A stretch of 64,000 bases of DNA. It comes from Gordonia sp. UBA7599 (lineage in GTDB: Bacteria > Actinomycetota > Actinomycetes > Mycobacteriales > Mycobacteriaceae). The stretch spans positions 25,585 through 89,584 of the forward strand of contig DLKD01000139.1 in NCBI GenBank assembly GCA_002477755.1, in the 5' to 3' direction. The notes below the pieces were generated by a model, which searched no databases, was not told the origin of the DNA, and saw nothing but the letters and a program-made list of their open reading frames with translations. A program made the position numbers and the translations under genes. Shown piece by piece: positions 3,602 through 61,715 of this stretch. The stretch's first letter is position 1, and every line of letters starts with the position of its first letter.

Positions 3602-3817
3602 ATGCCTGAAGACGTTGTTGCCGAGATCGTGGCCACTGTTCTCGAGGTGCGTGTCGCCGACGGCCAGTCTGTCGACGTCGGCGACACGCTGGTCCTGCTC
3701 GAGTCGATGAAGATGGAGATCCCCGTCCTCGCCGAGGACGCCGGGGTGCTCGACGAGGTCAAGGTCGCCGTCGACGACGTCATCCAGGCCGGCGACATCA
3801 TCGCGACCTACAAGTAG
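3602..3817 (+). CDS. Biotinyl/lipoyl attachment mini-protein (TB7.3-like)
   Basis: This 71-residue protein is a stand-alone biotinyl domain. The ESMKM motif is at residues 34-38, with Lys37 the expected biotinylation site. The two half-barrels (VVAEIVATVLEV and GVLDEVKVAVDD) are complete. It corresponds to the M. tuberculosis biotinylated protein TB7.3 in the same position next to pdtaS. Its carboxylase partner is not known. The pdtaS start follows after 5 bases, so the two are likely cotranscribed. Because it has no catalytic domain, it could serve a carboxylase encoded elsewhere. Confidence 0.92.
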   Translation: MPEDVVAEIVATVLEVRVADGQSVDVGDTLVLLESMKMEIPVLAEDAGVLDEVKVAVDDVIQAGDIIATYK

Positions 3818-51991: not shown

Positions 51992-52111
51992 ACAGTGAGA
52001 CCCAGGTTGATCGGTTGACATGCGATCGTGATGCCGTGCAGGTTGGCATGCGCTGGGCAATCGGTCCAGAGTCGACCTCGTCGGCGCCAATGGCTGACGT
52101 CGCGGGTAGGC

Positions 52112-52365: not shown

Positions 52366-53160
52366 TCACCCGTTGGCTGCCGCCTCGCGCGTCGTCACCA
52401 GCGGCGCGAGGAGGTCAGCAAAGGGGGTCGGGTCGGGGCCGGCCAACGTGGCACCGACCATTGACGCCCGCGATGCGGCGATCCAGTCGGTGCGGGTGAC
52501 GCGGTCCAGCGCGAGCCATCGGCCGCCTCGCTGGGCAATCAACTGCAAGATCAGCGTTCCAGCTCGGCCATTGCCTTCCCGAAACGGGTGTACGGCGTTG
52601 TAGTCGGCGTAGATCCTCGCCAACCGATAGGCGAGCGCCGTTGGACCATATCCGTCGGCACAAGCGAACGCCTCGTCGACGTCCCGCGCCGTGCGTGCGA
52701 GGCCGGTCGACAGCTGCGGGACGGTGGCAAACTCCACGTCGCCCTTGGTCACCCTGGTGATGCGTGGTTCACCGGCCCACGGGTAGATGTCGGCGAAGAT
52801 CGCTCGGTGCGCGTCACACACCGAGAGCGACGACGGCGGATTCTTGAGCAGGCCCACAGTCCGACCCGCGCTGATCGCGTGCTCGGCTGCGGCCAGCAAG
52901 GGAGCCTCCGTTAGACCGAGGTTGTTCACCAGGACCGAGGTCCCCGGGACTAGATAAGGTCGCCGCCGCGCGAATACGGTACGCCGCGGCGGTTGCTCCT
53001 CGCGGTAACGACGGCGGCACCAGCCCAGGAACTGCGGCACGGTGAGCGTTCCGTGCGCCAACTCATCGAGGACTGCAATCTGCTCGTCGTCGGGCCGCCA
53101 TCCTTCCAACCGCTGTGCGGCCAGGGCCCACGCCGATTCCGGTGCGAGCTGAGCGGTCAC
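52366..53160 (-). CDS. Fic family protein
   Basis: This 264-residue protein has a complete Fic motif, HPFREGNGRAG (catalytic His and the GNGR loop). An upstream flap region contains NPPSSLSVCDAHRAIFADIYPWAGEPRI. Fic enzymes transfer AMP or other phosphate-linked groups from nucleotides to hydroxyl side chains. No obvious inhibitory helix motif ([S/T]xxxE[G/N]) was identified. The GTG start at 53160 overlaps the stop of the nucleotidyltransferase gene (GTGA). It is the last gene of the urea/guanidine operon, which is an unusual place for a Fic protein. There is no antitoxin-like partner. Confidence 0.88.
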   Translation of the reverse strand: MTAQLAPESAWALAAQRLEGWRPDDEQIAVLDELAHGTLTVPQFLGWCRRRYREEQPPRRTVFARRRPYLVPGTSVLVNNLGLTEAPLLAAAEHAISAGRTVGLLKNPPSSLSVCDAHRAIFADIYPWAGEPRITRVTKGDVEFATVPQLSTGLARTARDVDEAFACADGYGPTALAYRLARIYADYNAVHPFREGNGRAGTLILQLIAQRGGRWLALDRVTRTDWIAASRASMVGATLAGPDPTPFADLLAPLVTTREAAANG

Positions 53161-54161
53161 AGCAGCCGCCACTGGTAACGAACCACCCGCTGTGCGCGCA
53201 GCACTTCTCGGCCGGCGCTACGCAGCGCGGCGCGGTCGTGTGGAGCCAGTTCACCGAGCGTCACGATGTCCCAGGCTGAGCGCGGCGTCTTCTCCCACCT
53301 CCTGCTGCGCAGTGTCCACCGAAGCACCGTCGTCGCGCGGTATGCCTGCACCAGTCCGTCCCAGTCGATGTCGGTCAGTTGCTCGTCGACCACCGAGAGT
53401 CGGTCGGTCGTCGCGCTCGCCGCCGAGTCGGCCAGCACCGCTTTCAACCGCGCGAGCCGGACTATCGGGTCGATCACCGCCTGTTTGATATCGACTGAAT
53501 CGCGGCGGCCGGTAAGCACCGCCAGTCGAGCGGGGACCACCTCCCGCGACGCCGTGGCGTCCTGCGCCATTGCGCTGCCTAGTTCGCGGTGACGTGCGGC
53601 AGCCTCGCGCATCCACAGCTTCGGGTCGTCGCCGGTCGTCGCTGCCGTCTCACCGACCGCGCACGAGTCCAACATCAGCCCAGCCATGACGACGCCACGG
53701 TCGGTCTGCGGGGCCTGCGCCCACCGGTCGGTGGCGGCCACCCACTCCTCACGCGTTCGGCAACATCGGGCCCGGCTTGCGGTCGCACCGTTGCTATCGC
53801 CGGCCAAGCCGCCATTTTCGAGCAGCTCGTGCACCCGCGCAGCCTGGGCGAACACCTCGTTGCGGCGATCGTTGGGCCCGTCCGCGTCGAATACCGCCAG
53901 CGTCTCCACATCCGCCCCCGGCAGCGCCTCGCCGCGTCCGCAACTGCCGGTCACGAACCAGTGCCATCGCACCCCCTCGGGGGGACCGACGAGATCGACG
54001 GCCCGGTCCGCAGCTACGCGCACCAGCCCCGACCACCAGAGTGCGGCCACCTCCGGCCCGGCGCGCGGCGGCGGCGCCGCGCGCACCTGACCGATCGCGG
54101 TGACCAGCTCGTCGGCTGTGCGAGCGCCCCGGATAGCTACCAGATGATCGTCGAGCGTCAT
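53157..54161 (-). CDS. DUF294-type nucleotidyltransferase (GlnD-like)
   Basis: This 334-residue protein is cytosolic. The nucleotidyltransferase core has FVTGSCGRGEALPGADVETL, a GS-x-GR loop with the acidic pair in Asp-Val-Glu instead of the usual Asp-Gln-Asp. The C-terminal half matches DUF294_C, with RRDSVDIKQAVIDPIVRLARLKAVLA, then TTDRLSVVDEQL and VQAYRATTVLRWTLR. Unlike longer relatives it has no CBS or cAMP-binding domains. Such proteins are thought to nucleotidylate proteins like GlnD does. Its start overlaps the allophanate hydrolase stop by one base (TGATG). Confidence 0.8.
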   Translation of the reverse strand: MTLDDHLVAIRGARTADELVTAIGQVRAAPPPRAGPEVAALWWSGLVRVAADRAVDLVGPPEGVRWHWFVTGSCGRGEALPGADVETLAVFDADGPNDRRNEVFAQAARVHELLENGGLAGDSNGATASRARCCRTREEWVAATDRWAQAPQTDRGVVMAGLMLDSCAVGETAATTGDDPKLWMREAAARHRELGSAMAQDATASREVVPARLAVLTGRRDSVDIKQAVIDPIVRLARLKAVLADSAASATTDRLSVVDEQLTDIDWDGLVQAYRATTVLRWTLRSRRWEKTPRSAWDIVTLGELAPHDRAALRSAGREVLRAQRVVRYQWRLL

Positions 54162-55834
54162 CACCAACGGTCCCGGTCCAGCGGCACACCGGCCCCTGCC
54201 GCGTCGGCGGCACAACCGAAGCCGACCACCCACTGTCCGTCGGACAATTCAACCTTGCCGAGCATCATCGGCTCGGGCAGGGCGGCCAGAAACTCGCCAA
54301 GTGCAGCGGGGGAGAGGGTCCATGTCTGCCCGACGATGGCTCGGCCCCGTTCCGGATCGCGGATCAAGCCGGGTTTGGGCGGAACCGTGTCCAGTGCAAC
54401 GAGCCGATAGGACGGCGCGGTTGTGACTTCTCGGGTCCACCGAGCACCCCGTCCTGCCAGCTCGTGCTCCAGCGGACCGCCGCGCATGTGTGCCCCGAAC
54501 ACGGCGAGCTCGGTGTGCGTTGCCGCTGATTCCACCCAGGTCGGCCCGGTGAGCTCGGGGTCTACGAATCTCCGCGCCAGATCCAGGACCACAGCATCGG
54601 CGCGCCGTTTACCCAGGAACGTGATACCGAACTCCGCTGCAGTCCCATCCGCCTCGTCAACCGTTCCGGCGGGCACGGCCACCCCGCACAAGTCGAAGAG
54701 ATTGCAGAAGTTGGTGTACGTGCCCATGCGCGAGTTCACGCCGACCGGATCGGCGGCCACCTGCGCGATCGTCGGGTGTAGTGGCGCGGTCGGCACCAGC
54801 AGGGCATCGGCATCTCCCCAGATCCGCATGGCCTGGTCCCGCAGTTCGGTCAACCGTCGTCGGGCCCTCAACAGGCCGACCGCGCTGAACCGGTTCGCCG
54901 CGCCGATGATTCCGCCGACAGTCGGATCGATACCCGCCGTCTGATCGGAGACCGCTGCGTCGAGGAAATCCCCGACCGCGTCGTAGCGCTGGGCGACCAG
55001 AGCGTCGTCGTAGAGCAGTCGTGCTGCCTCGATGAATGGGCCGAGGTCGATTCGGCGCACCGTCATTCCCGCGGCTTCTGCGGCGGCGACGGCGCGCTCG
55101 AAGGCGTTTCGCCAGTCGGCGTCTAGTTCGGGCAGCTCTGCGGGCACGGCGATCGCCGGCGCGGCCGGGGCGGCAAAGCAGGTCGAGACATCGAAGGCGA
55201 CCGGTCCGGGCGCGTCGACCATCGCGGACATGGCCGCATCGGCATCCTCCAGCGTCCGCGCGAAGATCGTCACGGTGTCGTAGTCGGCACACGCCGGAAC
55301 CACGCCCTCGGTGCTGAGGAGGCCGACGGTCGGTTTGATACCGATGACACCCTGTAGGGCGGCGGGGATGCGGCCCGACCCAGCGGTGTCTGTCCCGATC
55401 GCGATGTCTGCCAGGCCGAGCGCAACCGCGACCGCCGAGCCCGAGCTCGATCCGCCGGAGATGCGGTCGGGCCGTCGGGAATCGGGCACCGCGCCGTACG
55501 GGCTTCGCGTGCCGACCAGTCCGGTGGCGAATTGGTCGAGGTTGGTTTTGCCGAGTACTACCGCGCCGGCCGTCCGCAAGGCCGCGACGACTGGCGCGTC
55601 TGCCTCGGGGAGGTAGCTGTACCCAGGGCAGGCTGCGGTTGTCGCGAGCCCGGCGACATCGACGTTGTCTTTGACCGCCAGGATGACCCCGGCGAGCGGT
55701 CCGGCCTGCGCTATCGACCACTCGTAGTCGGCGGCCACCGCTGCCTGATCTCGCAGGCTAATGAACACTCCGGGGTGCTCTTCGATTGCCGCAAAAATGT
55801 CGTCTACTCGCGCCTGGGCGATGGTGGCGCTCAC
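54161..55834 (-). CDS. atzF: Allophanate hydrolase
   Basis: This 557-residue amidase-signature enzyme has the catalytic Lys in AVKDNVDVAG, the cis-Ser in RISGGSSSGSAVAVALG and the nucleophilic Ser in GTDTAGSGRIPAAL. A C-terminal allophanate hydrolase domain (about residues 430-557, starting TELAVFGAHMRGGPLEHEL) releases the second ammonia. It turns allophanate into two ammonia and two CO2, the final step of both urea carboxylase and guanidine carboxylase pathways. The GTG at 55834 overlaps the carboxyltransferase stop. The length is normal, so it should be active. Confidence 0.93.
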   Translation of the reverse strand: MSATIAQARVDDIFAAIEEHPGVFISLRDQAAVAADYEWSIAQAGPLAGVILAVKDNVDVAGLATTAACPGYSYLPEADAPVVAALRTAGAVVLGKTNLDQFATGLVGTRSPYGAVPDSRRPDRISGGSSSGSAVAVALGLADIAIGTDTAGSGRIPAALQGVIGIKPTVGLLSTEGVVPACADYDTVTIFARTLEDADAAMSAMVDAPGPVAFDVSTCFAAPAAPAIAVPAELPELDADWRNAFERAVAAAEAAGMTVRRIDLGPFIEAARLLYDDALVAQRYDAVGDFLDAAVSDQTAGIDPTVGGIIGAANRFSAVGLLRARRRLTELRDQAMRIWGDADALLVPTAPLHPTIAQVAADPVGVNSRMGTYTNFCNLFDLCGVAVPAGTVDEADGTAAEFGITFLGKRRADAVVLDLARRFVDPELTGPTWVESAATHTELAVFGAHMRGGPLEHELAGRGARWTREVTTAPSYRLVALDTVPPKPGLIRDPERGRAIVGQTWTLSPAALGEFLAALPEPMMLGKVELSDGQWVVGFGCAADAAGAGVPLDRDRW

Positions 55835-57831
55835 GAGGACGCCCCTTCTTTGATCCCAAATTCTCCCCGCTCCGACCAGCGGCGTCGTTCCTCTTCGCGC
55901 GCCTGAACCATCACCGCTCGCTTGGCGGCGATGTCGGCCGCGTTTGCATCCAAGAAGCGCTGATGCTCGGCCAACGAGAAGCTGCCGTCAACGATCCGGA
56001 TGCTTTCTCCGCGGCCGGCGGCGACATCGGCTCGCATGTCGAGAAGCTCTTCGGCGCCAACCGGATACCACCGGATCTTATCGAAGAAGCGCAGCAGCCA
56101 TGGATGCTCAGGGTCAAAGCCCGGGGTCGGCAGCGGATGCCGGTGGTTCCACACCTGCGTAGTGCGCCCGACAAACTGGTAACCGCCCGGACCCTCCATG
56201 CCGTACACACAGAGGTAGGCGCCGCCGATACCGACCGCGTTCTCCGGGGTCCAGGTTCGGGCCGGGTTGTATTTGGTGGTCACCAAGCGGTGACGGGGGT
56301 CGAGCGGAACCGCCACCGGCGCCCCGAGGTAGACATCACCGAGACCAAGAACCAAATAGCTGGCGTCGAAGACGGTGCGGTACACGTCGTCGACCGAATC
56401 CAGACCGTTCATCCGCCGGATGAACTCGATATTCCACGGGCACCACGGTGCGTCCGACCGCACACCCAGCATGTAGCGCTTGATCGCTTCACGCGTCGAA
56501 GGGTCGTCCCACGACAGCGGCAGTTCGACGGTGCGGCTCGGCACCACCAGGTCGTCGGCGGCGGGCAGTTGCGCCTCGCATTCGACAAGCCAATCGAGCA
56601 TCGACCGTTGGGTCCACACGTCGGGGTCGCCTTTGACCTGGAGTGAACGGATGCCCGGTGTGAGGTCGATCAGGCCACGCGGCGCCTCAGCCGCGATGCG
56701 CTCGGCCAACGCATGGACCCGTGCCCGCAGCGTCAGGTCGAGGGTCTGCTCGCCGTACTCGACGAGGATGTTGTCGTCGCCGGAGCGGCGGTACGTCACC
56801 TTGGTGCCGTCGGCCGTGTCGCCGATGTGCAAGACCCCGTTGTCGTCGTCGCCACCGGTCGACAGGACATGTGCGACGCTCGCGCGACGCCCGAGTCCGA
56901 CCTGCGACAGTGAGGCCGACTCGGCGGTACGTACCGGGACGAAGCGCACGGTATCGCCCGGTTTGAGTTGACCCAGCTTCCAGCGCTCTGCGGTCACCAA
57001 CGTCACCGGGCAGACGAATCCGCCGAGGCTCGGCCCGTCCGGGCCGAGCAGGATCGGAGTGTCGCCGGTGAAGTCGAGGGCGCCCACCGAGTACGCGTTG
57101 TCGTGGATGTTCGACGGGTGCAGCCCGGCTTCGCCGCCGTCGCTGCGCGCCCAGCGCGGCTGCGGCCCCACCAGCCGCACACCGGTGCGGTCGGAATTGA
57201 AATGGACCTCGTAGTCGGTACCGAGCAGGTCGTCGATGTCCTCGGGGGTGAAGAATTCAGGTGCGCCGTGCGGGCCGATGGTGACCGCGAGACGCCAGTG
57301 ATTGGTGAGTGCAGGCTGCTCGTCGAACAGGATTCGCCGTGGCGGTGTGGATGACTCGAGACCTGCCGAGGTCAGCTCGTCGCCGTCGCGCAGCGCCCGG
57401 CCGTGATGTCCGCCGAAACGGCCGAGAGTGAACGTGGCGGCACTGCCGAGGTATTCCTCTGCCTCGATTCCGCCGGCCACCGCGATGTACACCCGCAGCC
57501 CGATCGAACCCACCGCGCCGACATCCAGGACGTCACCAGCGGCGACGGTGATCGGCGCCCACTGTGGAGCGACGCGACCATTCACCGTGACGAGCACCGG
57601 TGCACCGGTCACCGCGACGACCGATGCCTCCTCGAACCGCAGCGTTGGTCCCGTCAGGGTGGCTTCGAGGCCCGTCGCACTCTCGGCATTGCCGACGGCG
57701 AGGTTGGCCAGACGGAACGACAGGTCGTCCATCGGGCCCGACGGCGGGACGCCGACCTTCCAGTAACCGATGCGGCCCGGCCAGTCTTGGACGGTGGTCT
57801 GCGCACCGGCGCGCACCACCGAGATCGTCAT
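55831..57831 (-). CDS. Urea/guanidine carboxylase carboxyltransferase part (no BC, no BCCP)
   Basis: This 666-residue protein holds only the carboxyltransferase domains of urea-amidolyase-type carboxylases. The AHS2/KipA-like part starts ISVVRAGAQTTVQDWPGR. The AHS1/KipI-like part runs from about residue 335 (VTYRRSGDDNILVEYGEQTLDL) through NPARTWTPENAVGIGGAYLCVYG. The end (EERRRWSERGEFGIKEGASS) is where the biotin carrier domain begins in full enzymes. Full urea carboxylases are about 1200 residues with biotin carboxylase first and biotin carrier last. Both are missing here, with clean domain ends and overlapping neighbours on both sides. Confidence 0.88.
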   Translation of the reverse strand: MTISVVRAGAQTTVQDWPGRIGYWKVGVPPSGPMDDLSFRLANLAVGNAESATGLEATLTGPTLRFEEASVVAVTGAPVLVTVNGRVAPQWAPITVAAGDVLDVGAVGSIGLRVYIAVAGGIEAEEYLGSAATFTLGRFGGHHGRALRDGDELTSAGLESSTPPRRILFDEQPALTNHWRLAVTIGPHGAPEFFTPEDIDDLLGTDYEVHFNSDRTGVRLVGPQPRWARSDGGEAGLHPSNIHDNAYSVGALDFTGDTPILLGPDGPSLGGFVCPVTLVTAERWKLGQLKPGDTVRFVPVRTAESASLSQVGLGRRASVAHVLSTGGDDDNGVLHIGDTADGTKVTYRRSGDDNILVEYGEQTLDLTLRARVHALAERIAAEAPRGLIDLTPGIRSLQVKGDPDVWTQRSMLDWLVECEAQLPAADDLVVPSRTVELPLSWDDPSTREAIKRYMLGVRSDAPWCPWNIEFIRRMNGLDSVDDVYRTVFDASYLVLGLGDVYLGAPVAVPLDPRHRLVTTKYNPARTWTPENAVGIGGAYLCVYGMEGPGGYQFVGRTTQVWNHRHPLPTPGFDPEHPWLLRFFDKIRWYPVGAEELLDMRADVAAGRGESIRIVDGSFSLAEHQRFLDANAADIAAKRAVMVQAREEERRRWSERGEFGIKEGASS

Positions 57832-58508
57832 CGCTGGTCCTCTCGCGTCACGATGATGCGCACGGCGGTGGGGTCGAAGCCGTTGCAGGGGTTGTTGATC
57901 TGCGGACAGTTGGAGATCAGCACCAGGGTGTCCACCTCGGCGCGCAGGGCGAGTCGCTTCCCCGGCGCTGACAACCCGTCGACGATCCCAAGTGTTCCGT
58001 CGGGATCCACCGGCACGTTCATGAAGAAGTTGACGTTTCCGACCATGTCGGCTTTGCCGAGTCCGTGGCGCGAGCCTTCGATCAGGAAGTTCTCCACACA
58101 GGCGTGCTGGTGTTTGGTGTGGTGCCCGTAGCGAAGCGTGTTCGACTCCTGTGAGCACGCGCCACCGACGGTGTCGTGGTTGCCCACCTCGTCGGCCACG
58201 ATCGTCACGAGTGGTCGAGACTCTTGGTCCCTCAGCACACTGCCGGTCGTGAGGAAGAGGTTCCCCTGTGCCGCGATGGTGGCCTGGGCGCAATAGCGCG
58301 CCGACGGTCGAGGCGTTCCGGCGACGTCGACGCCGTAGAAGAGGGTGTCCACGGCCTGGTTGCCGTGCAGATCGACGATCGTGAGCACATCGCCGGCGGC
58401 GATGATTCCTGACCACGGTGCGCGTTCCCCTACCTCGGTGTCGAGGATTACGGTGCCGGTTCCGAGCGCCAAGTCTGCGGCGGAGGTTGACGTTGCGGTG
58501 GTGGTCAC
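57828..58508 (-). CDS. DUF1989 protein, urea amidolyase-associated 2 / carboxyguanidine deiminase subunit
   Basis: This 226-residue DUF1989 protein has a central sequence IVDLHGNQAVDTLFYGVD, then GGACSQESNTLRYG with its Cys, and CVENFLIEGSRHGLGKADMVGNVNFFMNVPVDPDGTLGIVDGLS. Pairs of DUF1989 proteins encoded next to urea-carboxylase-like genes have been shown to form a heteromeric carboxyguanidine deiminase, which makes allophanate from carboxyguanidine. So guanidine is a more likely substrate for the operon than urea. The GTG 58508 start overlaps the upstream DUF1989 stop, and its own stop overlaps the carboxyltransferase ATG. Confidence 0.85.
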   Translation of the reverse strand: MTTTATSTSAADLALGTGTVILDTEVGERAPWSGIIAAGDVLTIVDLHGNQAVDTLFYGVDVAGTPRPSARYCAQATIAAQGNLFLTTGSVLRDQESRPLVTIVADEVGNHDTVGGACSQESNTLRYGHHTKHQHACVENFLIEGSRHGLGKADMVGNVNFFMNVPVDPDGTLGIVDGLSAPGKRLALRAEVDTLVLISNCPQINNPCNGFDPTAVRIIVTREDQR

Positions 58509-59353
58509 GACAGTTCCTTTGTGGTGTTCGCGGCGGCGGTCCAGGCGTCCTCAGAGTTGGCGACGGCGCGCTGGAACTCCGGTTCGGTATCGGTGCGGTG
58601 GACGAGGTCGGCGAGGGTATCCGGCGCGCGCCAGGCAAGGACCTCAAGAGGGCCGGTCGCGAATGTTGACGACGGGTCGCACGGGTGAGCGGTGTTGGCG
58701 ATGGCCACGATGCAGGGCAGGTGCAGGATCAGTTCGACGGCTTTGTCGCTGCCTGCCGACCCGATGGATTCCAACGCTCCGTCGTCGGCGACCCGGACAC
58801 CGTGGAAGAACGACACTGGCGAAGGCACGTCGGCGACGCCCAGCCCGTTCTTGGCGGCAGCCAGGATCAGGAGTTCCCGACCGGCGGGGCTGGCGCCGTG
58901 GACGCTGCCGTCGCCGTACTTGGCGGTGTTGTGTGCCAGCGTCGTCGTTCCGCACAGTGCGTCGTGATGCTCGGAGTCATCGGCCACCACTGTGGCGAGC
59001 ACCCGACCCTGATCCGAGAGCAGCGGGTGACCCGCGCCGAGGTATGCCTGCCAAGGCACCTTGACGGTGTCCGCCACGTTCAACCGCTCCCACTGGGCGT
59101 CCGCGCGCCACAGCAGCAGGTTCGCGCAGGCCGATCCGGTCAGGTCGCGCAGTCGAATCCGGGTGCCGCGAGCGAGCACCTTGGTGGTGTAGCGGCCACC
59201 CGGTACGGTCTCCGCCCAGGTCAGCTCCGAGGCGGCAACTCCGTTCGGTGGGCTCGGCCAGTCAGTGGGCGGGACAACCGGCATCGAGTCGGTGATGGTC
59301 CCGGACTGCGCGCGGGCATGTGCGCGCGCGTCGGTGGTGGTGCTGGTGCTCAT
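58505..59353 (-). CDS. DUF1989 protein, urea amidolyase-associated 1 / carboxyguanidine deiminase subunit
   Basis: This 282-residue DUF1989 paralogue of the next gene has a longer N-terminus and a conserved core. The core includes TGSACANLLLWRADAQWERLNVADTVKVPWQAYLGAGHPLLSDQGRVLATVV and HDALCGTTTLAHNTAKYGDGS, with FFHGVRVADDGALESIGSAGSD further on. The conserved Cys and His positions match those of the partner, as expected for a metal-dependent heteromer. It lies directly after the permease gene with a four-base overlap. Which of the two proteins carries the active site cannot be told from sequence. Confidence 0.85.
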   Translation of the reverse strand: MSTSTTTDARAHARAQSGTITDSMPVVPPTDWPSPPNGVAASELTWAETVPGGRYTTKVLARGTRIRLRDLTGSACANLLLWRADAQWERLNVADTVKVPWQAYLGAGHPLLSDQGRVLATVVADDSEHHDALCGTTTLAHNTAKYGDGSVHGASPAGRELLILAAAKNGLGVADVPSPVSFFHGVRVADDGALESIGSAGSDKAVELILHLPCIVAIANTAHPCDPSSTFATGPLEVLAWRAPDTLADLVHRTDTEPEFQRAVANSEDAWTAAANTTKELS

Positions 59354-60936
59354 CGAGACTCCTCGGTGGCGTCGGTGGTGGCGGTCGGGCGAATCAACCG
59401 GTCGCCGTCGGTGACCGGCTTGGGATGAATCCGGTTACGCGGGAAGCAGGCCACCCCGACAAGGACGACAGCCGCGATGGTGATCGGGCCGGCCCACTGC
59501 AGGATCGGCATGGTGCCGTCGGGATTGAAGACTTCGGCGCGCGGCCAGGCGAGGTTGACCACCATGAGCCCGCCGTAGACGACCGCGAGCAGATTCACCA
59601 CGAAGCCGAAGCGGCCGAGCGTGAACAGCTTGTGGCCGTCGGAGTCGACTTCCGGGCCGCCGTGGGGCCAACCCTGAAGGCGGCGGTACAGCATGGGCAG
59701 GGTCACGGCGAGGTAGGCCAGGTAGATCAGCACGATGCAGACGCTGGCCAGGGTGGCGAAGATTGCTGCGTTGCCGACATTGACCAGCAGGATGAGCATG
59801 CACAGCACCCCGATCAGAATCGAGGGCAGGATCGGTGTGCCGGTGCGCTGGTTGACGTGGGCCAGTTGCTTGGAGAACGGCAGCCTGCCATCGCGGGCCA
59901 TCGAGTACATCAGTCGCGAGCAGGCCGTTTGGATTGCCAGGGTGCAGATGAGGACCGCGATCGCGACGTCGGCGAGCAGGACCTTGCCCCAGAATCCACC
60001 GAGGATTGAGTCCAAGACGTAGGGCAGACCGCCGTCGGCCAGTTGCTCGTCGAGGGTGGGCGCCGCCATCAAGGCGCCAAGGATGATCAGGCCGCCGCCG
60101 ATGGCCGAGCAGGTGAGCGCCAGCCGGATGGTGCGCGGGGCGACGCGGCGCGGGTTGTGGGTCTCTTCGGCGAGTTCGCCGGCTGAGCCGAAACCGACCA
60201 TCACGTATGCCGCCATCAGTCCCGAGCAGATGAAGGCCCACACGTAACCGGGCTGCTGGCCGGGTAGTCCGGTATCAAAGACGACGCCGGGGCCGCGTCG
60301 CGCATGGGTGAACAGGGCAAGGATGACTGCCGCGACGCCGATCAGTTCGCAGGTGACGCCGATGCTGTTGACCCGGCTCATCCAGTCGATCCCGATGCAG
60401 TTGATGATGGTGACGAGCACCAGCAGGACTGTGCCGAGCAGGACCGCGTTTGCTGCACCGCTGCTGGTGGTGAGCGTCGGATCGTCGCCGATCACCTGGA
60501 ACCCGCTCCAGATACTCGGCAGCACCACCTGGAGTGCGATCGCTGCCGCCGCGGCCGTCACGATCTGAGCGATCATCATGAACCAGCCGCCGAACCAGCC
60601 GACTACCTCGCCGCCCAGGCGGCGCGACCACTGGTAGATCGCACCGGAGAGCGGATAGCGCGCGGCGATTTCAGCGAAGCACAGAGCCACCATGAATTGG
60701 CCGGCGTAGACGATCACCCAGGTCCAGAAGAAGGCTGGGCCGCCGAAGCCGAATCCGAGGCCGAAGAGCTGGAAGATCGTCGTGAGGATGGAGACGAACG
60801 AAAAGCCCGCGGCGAACGATGCGAACTTGCCGAGCGAGCGGTGCAGCTGCTGGTCGTAGCCGAAGTCGGAGAGGTCGTCGGCATCGGCGCCGCTTCGTGC
60901 CGTGTCCGGCGGTGGCTGCGTGGCGTCAACGGTCAT
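59350..60936 (-). CDS. APC superfamily amino-acid/amine permease
   Basis: This 528-residue permease has about twelve membrane helices. The acidic N-terminal tail leads into LHRSLGKFASFAAGFSFVSILTTIFQLFGLGFGFGGPAFFWTWVIVYAGQ, typical of the APC amino acid/choline subfamily. GFGSAGELAEETHNPRRVAPRTI is the conserved loop. In operons of this kind such permeases import urea- or guanidine-like amines. It is the first gene of a seven-gene unit and starts at ATG 60936 after AAGGAAA. Control is probably by the divergent TetR gene. Confidence 0.9.
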   Translation of the reverse strand: MTVDATQPPPDTARSGADADDLSDFGYDQQLHRSLGKFASFAAGFSFVSILTTIFQLFGLGFGFGGPAFFWTWVIVYAGQFMVALCFAEIAARYPLSGAIYQWSRRLGGEVVGWFGGWFMMIAQIVTAAAAAIALQVVLPSIWSGFQVIGDDPTLTTSSGAANAVLLGTVLLVLVTIINCIGIDWMSRVNSIGVTCELIGVAAVILALFTHARRGPGVVFDTGLPGQQPGYVWAFICSGLMAAYVMVGFGSAGELAEETHNPRRVAPRTIRLALTCSAIGGGLIILGALMAAPTLDEQLADGGLPYVLDSILGGFWGKVLLADVAIAVLICTLAIQTACSRLMYSMARDGRLPFSKQLAHVNQRTGTPILPSILIGVLCMLILLVNVGNAAIFATLASVCIVLIYLAYLAVTLPMLYRRLQGWPHGGPEVDSDGHKLFTLGRFGFVVNLLAVVYGGLMVVNLAWPRAEVFNPDGTMPILQWAGPITIAAVVLVGVACFPRNRIHPKPVTDGDRLIRPTATTDATEESR

Positions 60937-61016
60937 GATGCGGTTTCCTTACTCGTGAGCGGCGCGGTGGTCGCGTCAGTGCACTACAGAGAACTCGGAG
61001 CGCTTTTCTATCAAGT

Positions 61017-61046
61017 GACAGATTTGTTTCTCGTCTGAAAACTGTC
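61017..61046. promoter_or_regulatory. Candidate TetR operator in divergent gap
   Basis: GACAGATTT (61017-61025) and AAAACTGTC (61038-61046) are inverted with one mismatch, centred near 61031. The site lies in the 158-base gap between the permease operon and the TetR gene. The symmetry is moderate, and the call rests mainly on position. Confidence 0.4.
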
Positions 61047-61094: not shown

Positions 61095-61715
61095 ATGAAC
61101 TCCTCCGCAGTGCCTGCGCGGACCGGACCGGGACGCCCGCGCCTGGCGAGCCCGAAGCGAGCCGGAAGTACCGCCAGCGAGGAGATCCTGGACGCCGCCG
61201 CAGAACTATTCACCACGCGCGGATTCACCGCCACGTCGACCAGGATGATCGCCGAGGCCGTCGGTATGCGGCAGGCCTCGCTCTACCACTACTTCGCCAC
61301 CAAAGACGACATGCTCGCCGATCTGCTCGAGGCGACGGTGAGCGGTCCATTGACCTTGGCCCGCGAGTTGTTGGTCGCCGAGGATCCTGCACTCCAGCGT
61401 CTGCTCCGACTCGCTCGCTACGACGTCACCCAGCTCGCCCAGTCTCGCTGGAACTTGGGTGCGCTTTACCTTCTCCCCGAACTCGCCGCCGACAACTTCG
61501 CCGCATTCCGGGCGGCACGCGACGAACTGGCCAATGCCTACGCGTCCCTCGCCGCCGAAACCCTGTCGGACGCCGGCGATCCGCGTCGTCTCCTCCCATT
61601 TCGCCTCGTCGAGTCGATGATCATGATGCGCAGCGACGACCAGCACAGCAACAGCTATAGCGCAGCCGATCTGACCGACACGATTCTCGGGGCCATTTCG
61701 GCCGTGCTCAGGTAG
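61095..61715 (+). CDS. TetR family regulator of the urea/guanidine operon
   Basis: This 206-residue TetR protein has its DNA-binding part at about residues 28-75 (EEILDAAAELFTTRGFTATSTRMIAEAVGMRQASLYHYFATKDDMLADLL) after a basic, Pro-rich start. The ligand part includes LARYDVTQLAQSRWNLGALYLLPELAADNFAAF, similar to TetR proteins beside urea-carboxylase genes. A TAGACT hexamer (61082-61087) lies 7 bases before the ATG, so the transcript is probably leaderless. It faces away from the seven-gene operon and likely represses it until a substrate is present. No guanidine riboswitch was seen upstream of the operon. Confidence 0.87.
   Translation: MNSSAVPARTGPGRPRLASPKRAGSTASEEILDAAAELFTTRGFTATSTRMIAEAVGMRQASLYHYFATKDDMLADLLEATVSGPLTLARELLVAEDPALQRLLRLARYDVTQLAQSRWNLGALYLLPELAADNFAAFRAARDELANAYASLAAETLSDAGDPRRLLPFRLVESMIMMRSDDQHSNSYSAADLTDTILGAISAVLR

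Follow-up and report, generated by a model that had tools for sequence, protein, structure and literature searches.

The window examined here is a stretch of 64,000 nucleotides from Gordonia sp. UBA7599 (contig DLKD01000139.1, positions 25,585 to 89,584), in which an operon of seven genes, putatively for the use of guanidine, ends with a nucleotidyltransferase (NTase) of the DUF294 family and a Fic protein. These last two genes recur as a pair: the NTase lies directly upstream of Fic in 45 of the 46 genomes that carry this Fic subfamily, and the operon or its permease is adjacent to Fic or to the pair in 43 of them. We tentatively propose, with slightly less than an even chance, that the two genes constitute a regulatory module of guanidine operons controlled by the nitrogen repressor AmtR, which would act by reversible nucleotidylation of a protein, probably with AMP. 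The pairing is conserved, and so are the active-site residues and the place beside the operon or permease, often with amtR linked as well; the folds are predicted to fit, and the evidence throughout consists of sequence and of predicted single-chain structures. No description of an NTase-Fic pair in guanidine operons was found in the open-access literature, subscription papers being mostly outside the search.

Linkage and spread of the NTase-Fic pair

The Fic subfamily was delimited with a profile built from ten members, which was searched against 401 genomes of the window's family. It comprises 46 genomes including that of the window. Matches of at least 241 bits were obtained in 45 of them; the remaining one, G195, has a partial match of 194 bits that adjoins both NTase and operon and was counted in, and the next Fic match below the subfamily scores 185 bits. 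For the 45 relatives, 14-20 kb around Fic were fetched. The only member without the NTase directly upstream is G397, and the pair lies away from the operon in three genomes (G043, G005 and G072). The ten neighbours of the pair in these three genomes and at two other loci have no common theme. The initial annotation had named the finding of the pair beside unrelated genes in most relatives as the outcome that would speak against its proposal, and this was not seen; the 46-genome survey likewise led us to reject a chance neighbourhood.

The arrangements, which we assigned from a table of the neighbourhoods of the 46 genomes, fall into seven states. Most often the pair is divergent from the permease (29 genomes); it is convergent with the carboxyltransferase (CT) gene in six, upstream of the operon on the same strand in four, beside a lone permease in two, divergent from UAAP1 in one, at the operon end in one and away from the operon in three. 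Placed on a tree built from NTase and Fic joined together, the states need at least eight changes, the least possible number being six. Since linkage was kept through these changes save in the three genomes mentioned, it survived several rearrangements. The cotranscribed form in which the pair ends the operon occurs, among the 46 genomes, in the window only.

A separate scan of the best 80 Fic loci contained 11 loci of the subfamily. Ten of these have the NTase and adjoin the operon or permease, L134 of Rhodococcus erythropolis adjoining the operon; the one that does not, L129, is a remnant. The two surveys share six genomes, therefore their counts are not additive. In a sample of the class (394 genomes) Fic matches above 240 bits occur only in the window's family, the best match outside it scoring 157 bits, and two genera searched separately (37 and 28 genomes) gave 5 and 10 subfamily matches, all of which were already in the set. 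Of the 401 family genomes 253 have a match at E <= 1e-60 to UAAP2, one of the two DUF1989 proteins of the operon, and among them are 44 of the 46 genomes with the Fic subfamily (Fisher p 1e-7, uncorrected for relatedness). The two remaining subfamily genomes, G419 and G441 (L280 and L281), have no UAAP2 match at that threshold anywhere in the genome; UAAP1, CT and AtzF, searched only within the fetched 20 kb, were not matched there either. In both the pair is divergent from a lone permease that is 53-54% identical to that of the window.

Active sites of the two enzymes

The NTase has 334 residues with one DUF294 and one DUF294_C domain, lacks tandem modules with a regulatory region, and is predicted to fold like the catalytic module of GlnE. 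In GlnD the transferase is followed by HD and ACT domains; these were not matched in the NTase, for which no domain besides DUF294 and DUF294_C was found at E <= 0.01. Within the motif G-X11-D-X-D, G72 and D84 are present in 45 of 45 sequences, and the last position is Asp in 21 and Glu in 24, the window having Glu. A profile search of the PDB returned just a weak match to a minimal NTase (E 0.058), so that a relationship to a solved GlnD or GlnE by sequence was dropped; the link to GlnE came from the fold comparison. GlnE, the glutamine synthetase adenylyltransferase, consists of two modules and a central regulatory region, whereas the NTase is a single module without such a region, and the opposite activity is perhaps given to Fic. 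Some of the NTases carry CBS domains, which often bind adenine nucleotides, at the N-terminus (L041, L262, L272, L275, L287, L288 and L297); none were found in those of the window, L263 and L266.

The Fic protein has the Fic fold with the catalytic His in HxFx(D/E)GNGR, and the core of its predicted model matches VbhT and Fic-1 (VIA comparison). Residues 11-39 of the chain resemble the antitoxin VbhA, the match being weak in the window (E 6e-5, under Pfam's cut-off); VbhA is matched at E <= 0.1 by eight of the ten members of alignment A1. All 46 members have the catalytic His and, in the helix, the motif Glu-Gly-Trp, the Glu being residue 18 in the window. The second Arg of HxFx(D/E)GNGRxxR is replaced in 44 of the 45 readable members, by Thr in 32 including the window, by Ala in nine, and by Asn, Val and Ser in one each. 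Likewise, in the inhibitory motif (S/T)xxxE(G/N) before the Fic core, Glu and Gly are kept in all 46 while Ser or Thr remains in two only, the window having Ala. Among the 69 other Fic loci of the best-80 scan, which is biased to the HPFREGNG form, 60 have the second Arg.

What these residues do is described for the class I toxin-antitoxin system Fic-1/AntF. There the residue at the second-Arg position binds the Ser and Glu of the inhibitor, and its Ala mutant kept AMPylation; deAMPylation was lost only in the His mutant among the Fic-1 mutants, and on the side of the inhibitor loss of Glu abolished deAMPylation while loss of Ser left part of it (PMC13327609). The Glu is also required for deAMPylation in EfFic and FICD (PMC6408439, PMC8373988). 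Since His and Glu are invariant and Arg and Ser/Thr are nearly always lost, the subfamily retains the residues on which deAMPylation depends in those systems and drops the lock, and a plain autoinhibited AMPylator is unlikely. From Fic-1/AntF and VbhT/VbhA the window differs in that the helix is fused to Fic and not encoded by a separate small antitoxin gene, in the lost second Arg and Ser/Thr of the inhibitory motif, and in the adjoining metabolic operon. FICD and EfFic are two-way enzymes with a built-in Glu; the Fic studied here in contrast has no Arg lock and is partnered by an NTase gene. It also lacks the TPR domain that FICD carries.

The sole member that keeps both the Ser and the second Arg is that of G397 (L296), which is also the sole one without a neighbouring NTase. 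None was found beside its Fic even with filters off, and one NTase match lies elsewhere in the genome within a frame of 637 aa. This is a hint and not a test, as it is a single case from one clade.

In a PADLOC search Fic matched Fic models only, including the candidate PDC-S04, and the NTase had no match; a role in phage defence was set aside. The window's own genome has three Fic-like matches (L002, L004 and L005) within 9 kb on contig C99 (121937-130682). At L265 (G372) a second piece of Fic seems, from profile matches, to overlap the region of the NTase, and 8.7 kb beyond, on the opposite strand, there is one more NTase-like match.

The putative guanidine operon and its AmtR-like sites

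The genes and sites of the locus are listed in Table 1. All seven genes lie on the minus strand, and the families that the initial annotation had assigned to them (permease, two DUF1989 proteins, CT, AtzF, DUF294 and Fic) were confirmed by family models. Its description of an overlap at every junction also holds: read directly from the sequence, all six junctions overlap by one or four bases, namely ATGA (permease/UAAP1), GTGA (UAAP1/UAAP2), ATGA (UAAP2/CT), GTGA (CT/AtzF), TGATG (AtzF/NTase) and GTGA (NTase/Fic). The last of these requires the Fic start at 53160; a mechanical list of open reading frames begins Fic at 53172. Since the frames of the corresponding AmtR operon in Kineococcus likewise all overlap by GTGA or ATGA (PMC4222082), tight overlap alone is not special. 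The significance is in the recurrence of the NTase-Fic pair beside the guanidine operon, not in gene overlap.

Table 1. Genes and putative control sites of the locus (positions within the window).
Feature	Position	Strand	Basis
Fic; VbhA-like inhibitory helix (EGW) fused at the N-terminus, HPFREGNGR without second Arg	52366..53160	-	
NTase, DUF294 + DUF294_C, single GlnE-like module	53157..54161	-	
Allophanate hydrolase AtzF, amidase + AH_C	54161..55834	-	TIGR02713, 603 bits (cut-off 511)
Stand-alone carboxyltransferase (CT), CT_A_B + CT_C_D, guanidine type	55831..57831	-	Asp in GALDFTG; TIGR02712 positions 448-1116 of 1201
UAAP2, DUF1989, carboxyguanidine deiminase subunit by family	57828..58508	-	TIGR03424, 306 bits (cut-off 285)
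UAAP1, DUF1989, carboxyguanidine deiminase subunit by family	58505..59353	-	TIGR03425, 280 bits (cut-off 206)
Permease, APC-type, of urea/guanidine carboxylase systems	59350..60936	-	TIGR03428, 850 bits (cut-off 740)
AmtR-like operator CTAT-N6-ACAG	61008..61021	.	one mismatch to CTAT-N6-ATAG
GlnR-like box GAAAC-N6-GTCAC	61015..61030	-	assumed form of the site
amtR, divergent TetR-family nitrogen repressor	61095..61715	+	best solved match 5e57, E 1.3e-54

The residue before FTG, which we take to be the deciding column between guanidine and urea carboxylases, is Asn in the solved urea amidolyase and Asp in the CT of the window, as well as in 74 of 74 fetched loci matching the pattern (some genomes being counted more than once). 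Guanidine carboxylases are reported to have Asp at the position where urea carboxylases have Asn (PMC12186494). Due to this Asp, together with the DUF1989 pair and the allophanate hydrolase, which exceed their NCBIfam cut-offs, the core of the operon is best read as a guanidine pathway. No guanidine riboswitch (Rfam) was matched between positions 52000 and 62000 of the window, and control of that kind was set aside for this locus.

The CT covers only part of the urea carboxylase model and is without the biotin carboxylase and biotin carboxyl carrier protein parts. No biotin carboxylase was matched in the window or in loci L035-L048. The genome of the window (93.9% complete) has five biotin carboxylase genes; G065, a single-contig relative with the operon, has only two, and G005 has one at a distance of about 5 kb from its operon. 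The partner of the CT is likely a shared carboxylase subunit. Elsewhere in the window, at positions 3605-3814, there is a similarity to two carboxylase alpha subunits in their biotin/lipoyl carrier portion (E 7e-8 and 1e-4).

AmtR is encoded by the gene that diverges from the permease. Its best solved match is entitled 'Transcription regulator AmtR' and is presumably from Mycobacterium smegmatis; entries named AmtR protein, presumably from Corynebacterium glutamicum, come next. In 15 of the 46 genomes amtR follows Fic on the same strand within 100 bases, which gives an NTase-Fic-amtR cassette divergent from the permease. It follows at 0.8-8.3 kb in four further genomes, and nine, that of the window being one, have it at another place next to the operon. 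Of 42 loci, 26 have an AmtR-like operator (at most one mismatch) in the 320 bases upstream of the permease, whereas as background 39 of 2745 sequence windows from these loci have one. The window combines an amtR gene with a CTAT-N6-ATAG operator bearing one mismatch, the two sequence features of an AmtR regulon. GlnR-like boxes, of a form that we assume, number 1.83 per 300 bp upstream of the 42 permeases and 0.24 across the same loci, which is 7.7 times denser. G419 and G441 have neither an AmtR match in the fetched locus nor an AmtR-like operator upstream of the permease.

By annotation the operon has a counterpart in M. smegmatis, msmeg_2184-2189 (permease, two unknown frames, urea carboxylase/amidolyase, amidase/allophanate hydrolase), where AmtR acts as the repressor and GlnR mediates induction; the available text on it does not mention an NTase-Fic pair (PMC4222082). 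Enterobacterial guanidine carboxylase operons share the carboxylase, carboxyguanidine deaminase and allophanate hydrolase (PMC12186494). They have, as far as described there, a riboswitch and an ABC importer, whereas the window has an AmtR-like site, an APC permease and a split carboxyltransferase. The GlnD-GlnK-AmtR system of C. glutamicum, as described, resembles the chain of control proposed here in that it comprises AmtR, nitrogen genes and a step of AMPylation. It differs in that here the genes of a GlnE-like protein and of Fic adjoin the operon that is putatively under AmtR, in a locus where no gene for a PII protein was recognised.

A candidate regulatory module and its alternatives

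In the proposed module the DUF294 protein, as a single GlnE-like module, would be the writer. Fic, with its permanently attached helix, invariant Glu and lost Arg/Ser lock, would be the eraser or a two-way enzyme. The modified protein may belong to the AmtR axis, where AmtR and a PII protein such as GlnK are the candidates, or may be the permease, and import and breakdown of guanidine would then follow the nitrogen or energy state; we infer the target, the nucleotide and the direction of modification alike. The initial annotation had suggested that the pair adjusts the pathway by nucleotidylation. This appears right in kind and is partly supported by the tie to the operon, the predicted folds, the conserved active sites and the AmtR-like sites above background at permease promoters, but its preferred targets do not fare as well. 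Because the pair persists in G419 and G441 next to a permease, with no match to UAAP2 in the genome or to the remaining operon genes in the fetched 20 kb, the CT and the DUF1989 proteins are disfavoured, and judged from sequence AmtR, a PII protein acting on AmtR, or the permease are better candidates. A more specific version is rather doubtful: the GlnE-like writer would mark AmtR or a PII adaptor, the lock-free Fic eraser would undo this, and the signal that releases AmtR from the guanidine operon would come from that cycle.

Several observations weigh against a regulatory module of this kind. The two genomes nearest to the window on the tree of the pair, G043 and G005, have the pair away from the operon. 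As 209 of the 253 genomes with UAAP2 are without the Fic subfamily, the pair is an accessory module of a minority, and 18 of the 45 loci fetched from relatives gave no AmtR match. Nor do all Fic proteins outside the subfamily have the second Arg: actinobacterial loci L014-L034, which include the pair locus L016, gave 16 motif readings, nine of them Arg, five Lys, one Thr and one Ala. The remnant in Mycolicibacterium frederiksbergense (L129) has Thr for the second Arg and is without both inhibitory helix and NTase. Loss of the lock could also mean unrestrained AMPylation by Fic. Finally, in M. tuberculosis adenylylation of GlnK is reported not to drive the transcription response to nitrogen (PMC3612183), which makes a PII target uncertain.

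An unlikely alternative is one in which Fic is an AMPylating, growth-slowing toxin-like enzyme that the NTase and the fused helix restrain or reverse, the whole being a toxin-antitoxin-like module parked in a nitrogen operon. The core match to VbhT and Fic-1 and the match to PDC-S04 (E 8.8e-40) fit it, and so does the lock, the loss of which could free AMPylation, an equivalent mutant staying active (PMC13327609). The inhibitory Glu is kept in all 46 members, however, and the antitoxin-like helix is part of Fic with no gene of its own. Mobile toxin modules are expected in scattered settings, whereas the pair is linked to a single metabolic operon, or to the permease of that operon, in 43 of 46 genomes and to amtR within 100 bp in 15. 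Similarly improbable is an action on the permease, or on a partner of it, by which nucleotidylation would set guanidine uptake independently of AmtR. The pair is divergent from the permease in 29 genomes, and G419 and G441 have the adjacent permease without detected guanidine enzymes, AmtR match or AmtR-like operator; but in five Rhodococcus genomes of the convergent form, in G397, in G025 and in the window the neighbour is a different end of the operon.

Distances between sequences bear on this alternative and on a further one. Those of Fic and NTase track the CT distances with r 0.93-0.94 (Fic-CT 0.94), whereas permease distances follow the pair less (r 0.55-0.58), partly from the mixing of unlike permeases. 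As G195 and G397 were left out and no unlinked control gene was included, these correlations are only consistent with shared descent. Genomic hitchhiking, by which the pair is kept with its neighbourhood by descent only, would give the Fic-CT value just as well, and most operon-bearing genomes are without the pair. It is nevertheless very unlikely in view of the at least eight changes of arrangement through which linkage was kept save in three genomes, and of catalytic residues that are invariant over long branches. Hardly any weight is given to an NTase that modifies a small guanidino compound instead of a protein, as aminoglycoside nucleotidyltransferases modify their substrates.

The pair also bears on the question of how AmtR is released outside Corynebacterium. 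DNA binding of M. smegmatis AmtR was unaffected by the amino acids tested and by urea (PMC4222082), and a complex of adenylylated GlnK with AmtR was not rebuilt in vitro (PMC7919409). A pair encoded together with amtR and the operon makes this question testable with purified proteins, and the natural loss of the Arg lock provides a test of the function of the lock. If the proposed regulatory module is real, the two activities of glutamine synthetase adenylyltransferase would be split between two unrelated folds, nucleotidyltransferase and Fic, and a bacterial Fic protein would gain a metabolic role. For certain soil bacteria the pairing suggests an on/off switch for the use of guanidine.

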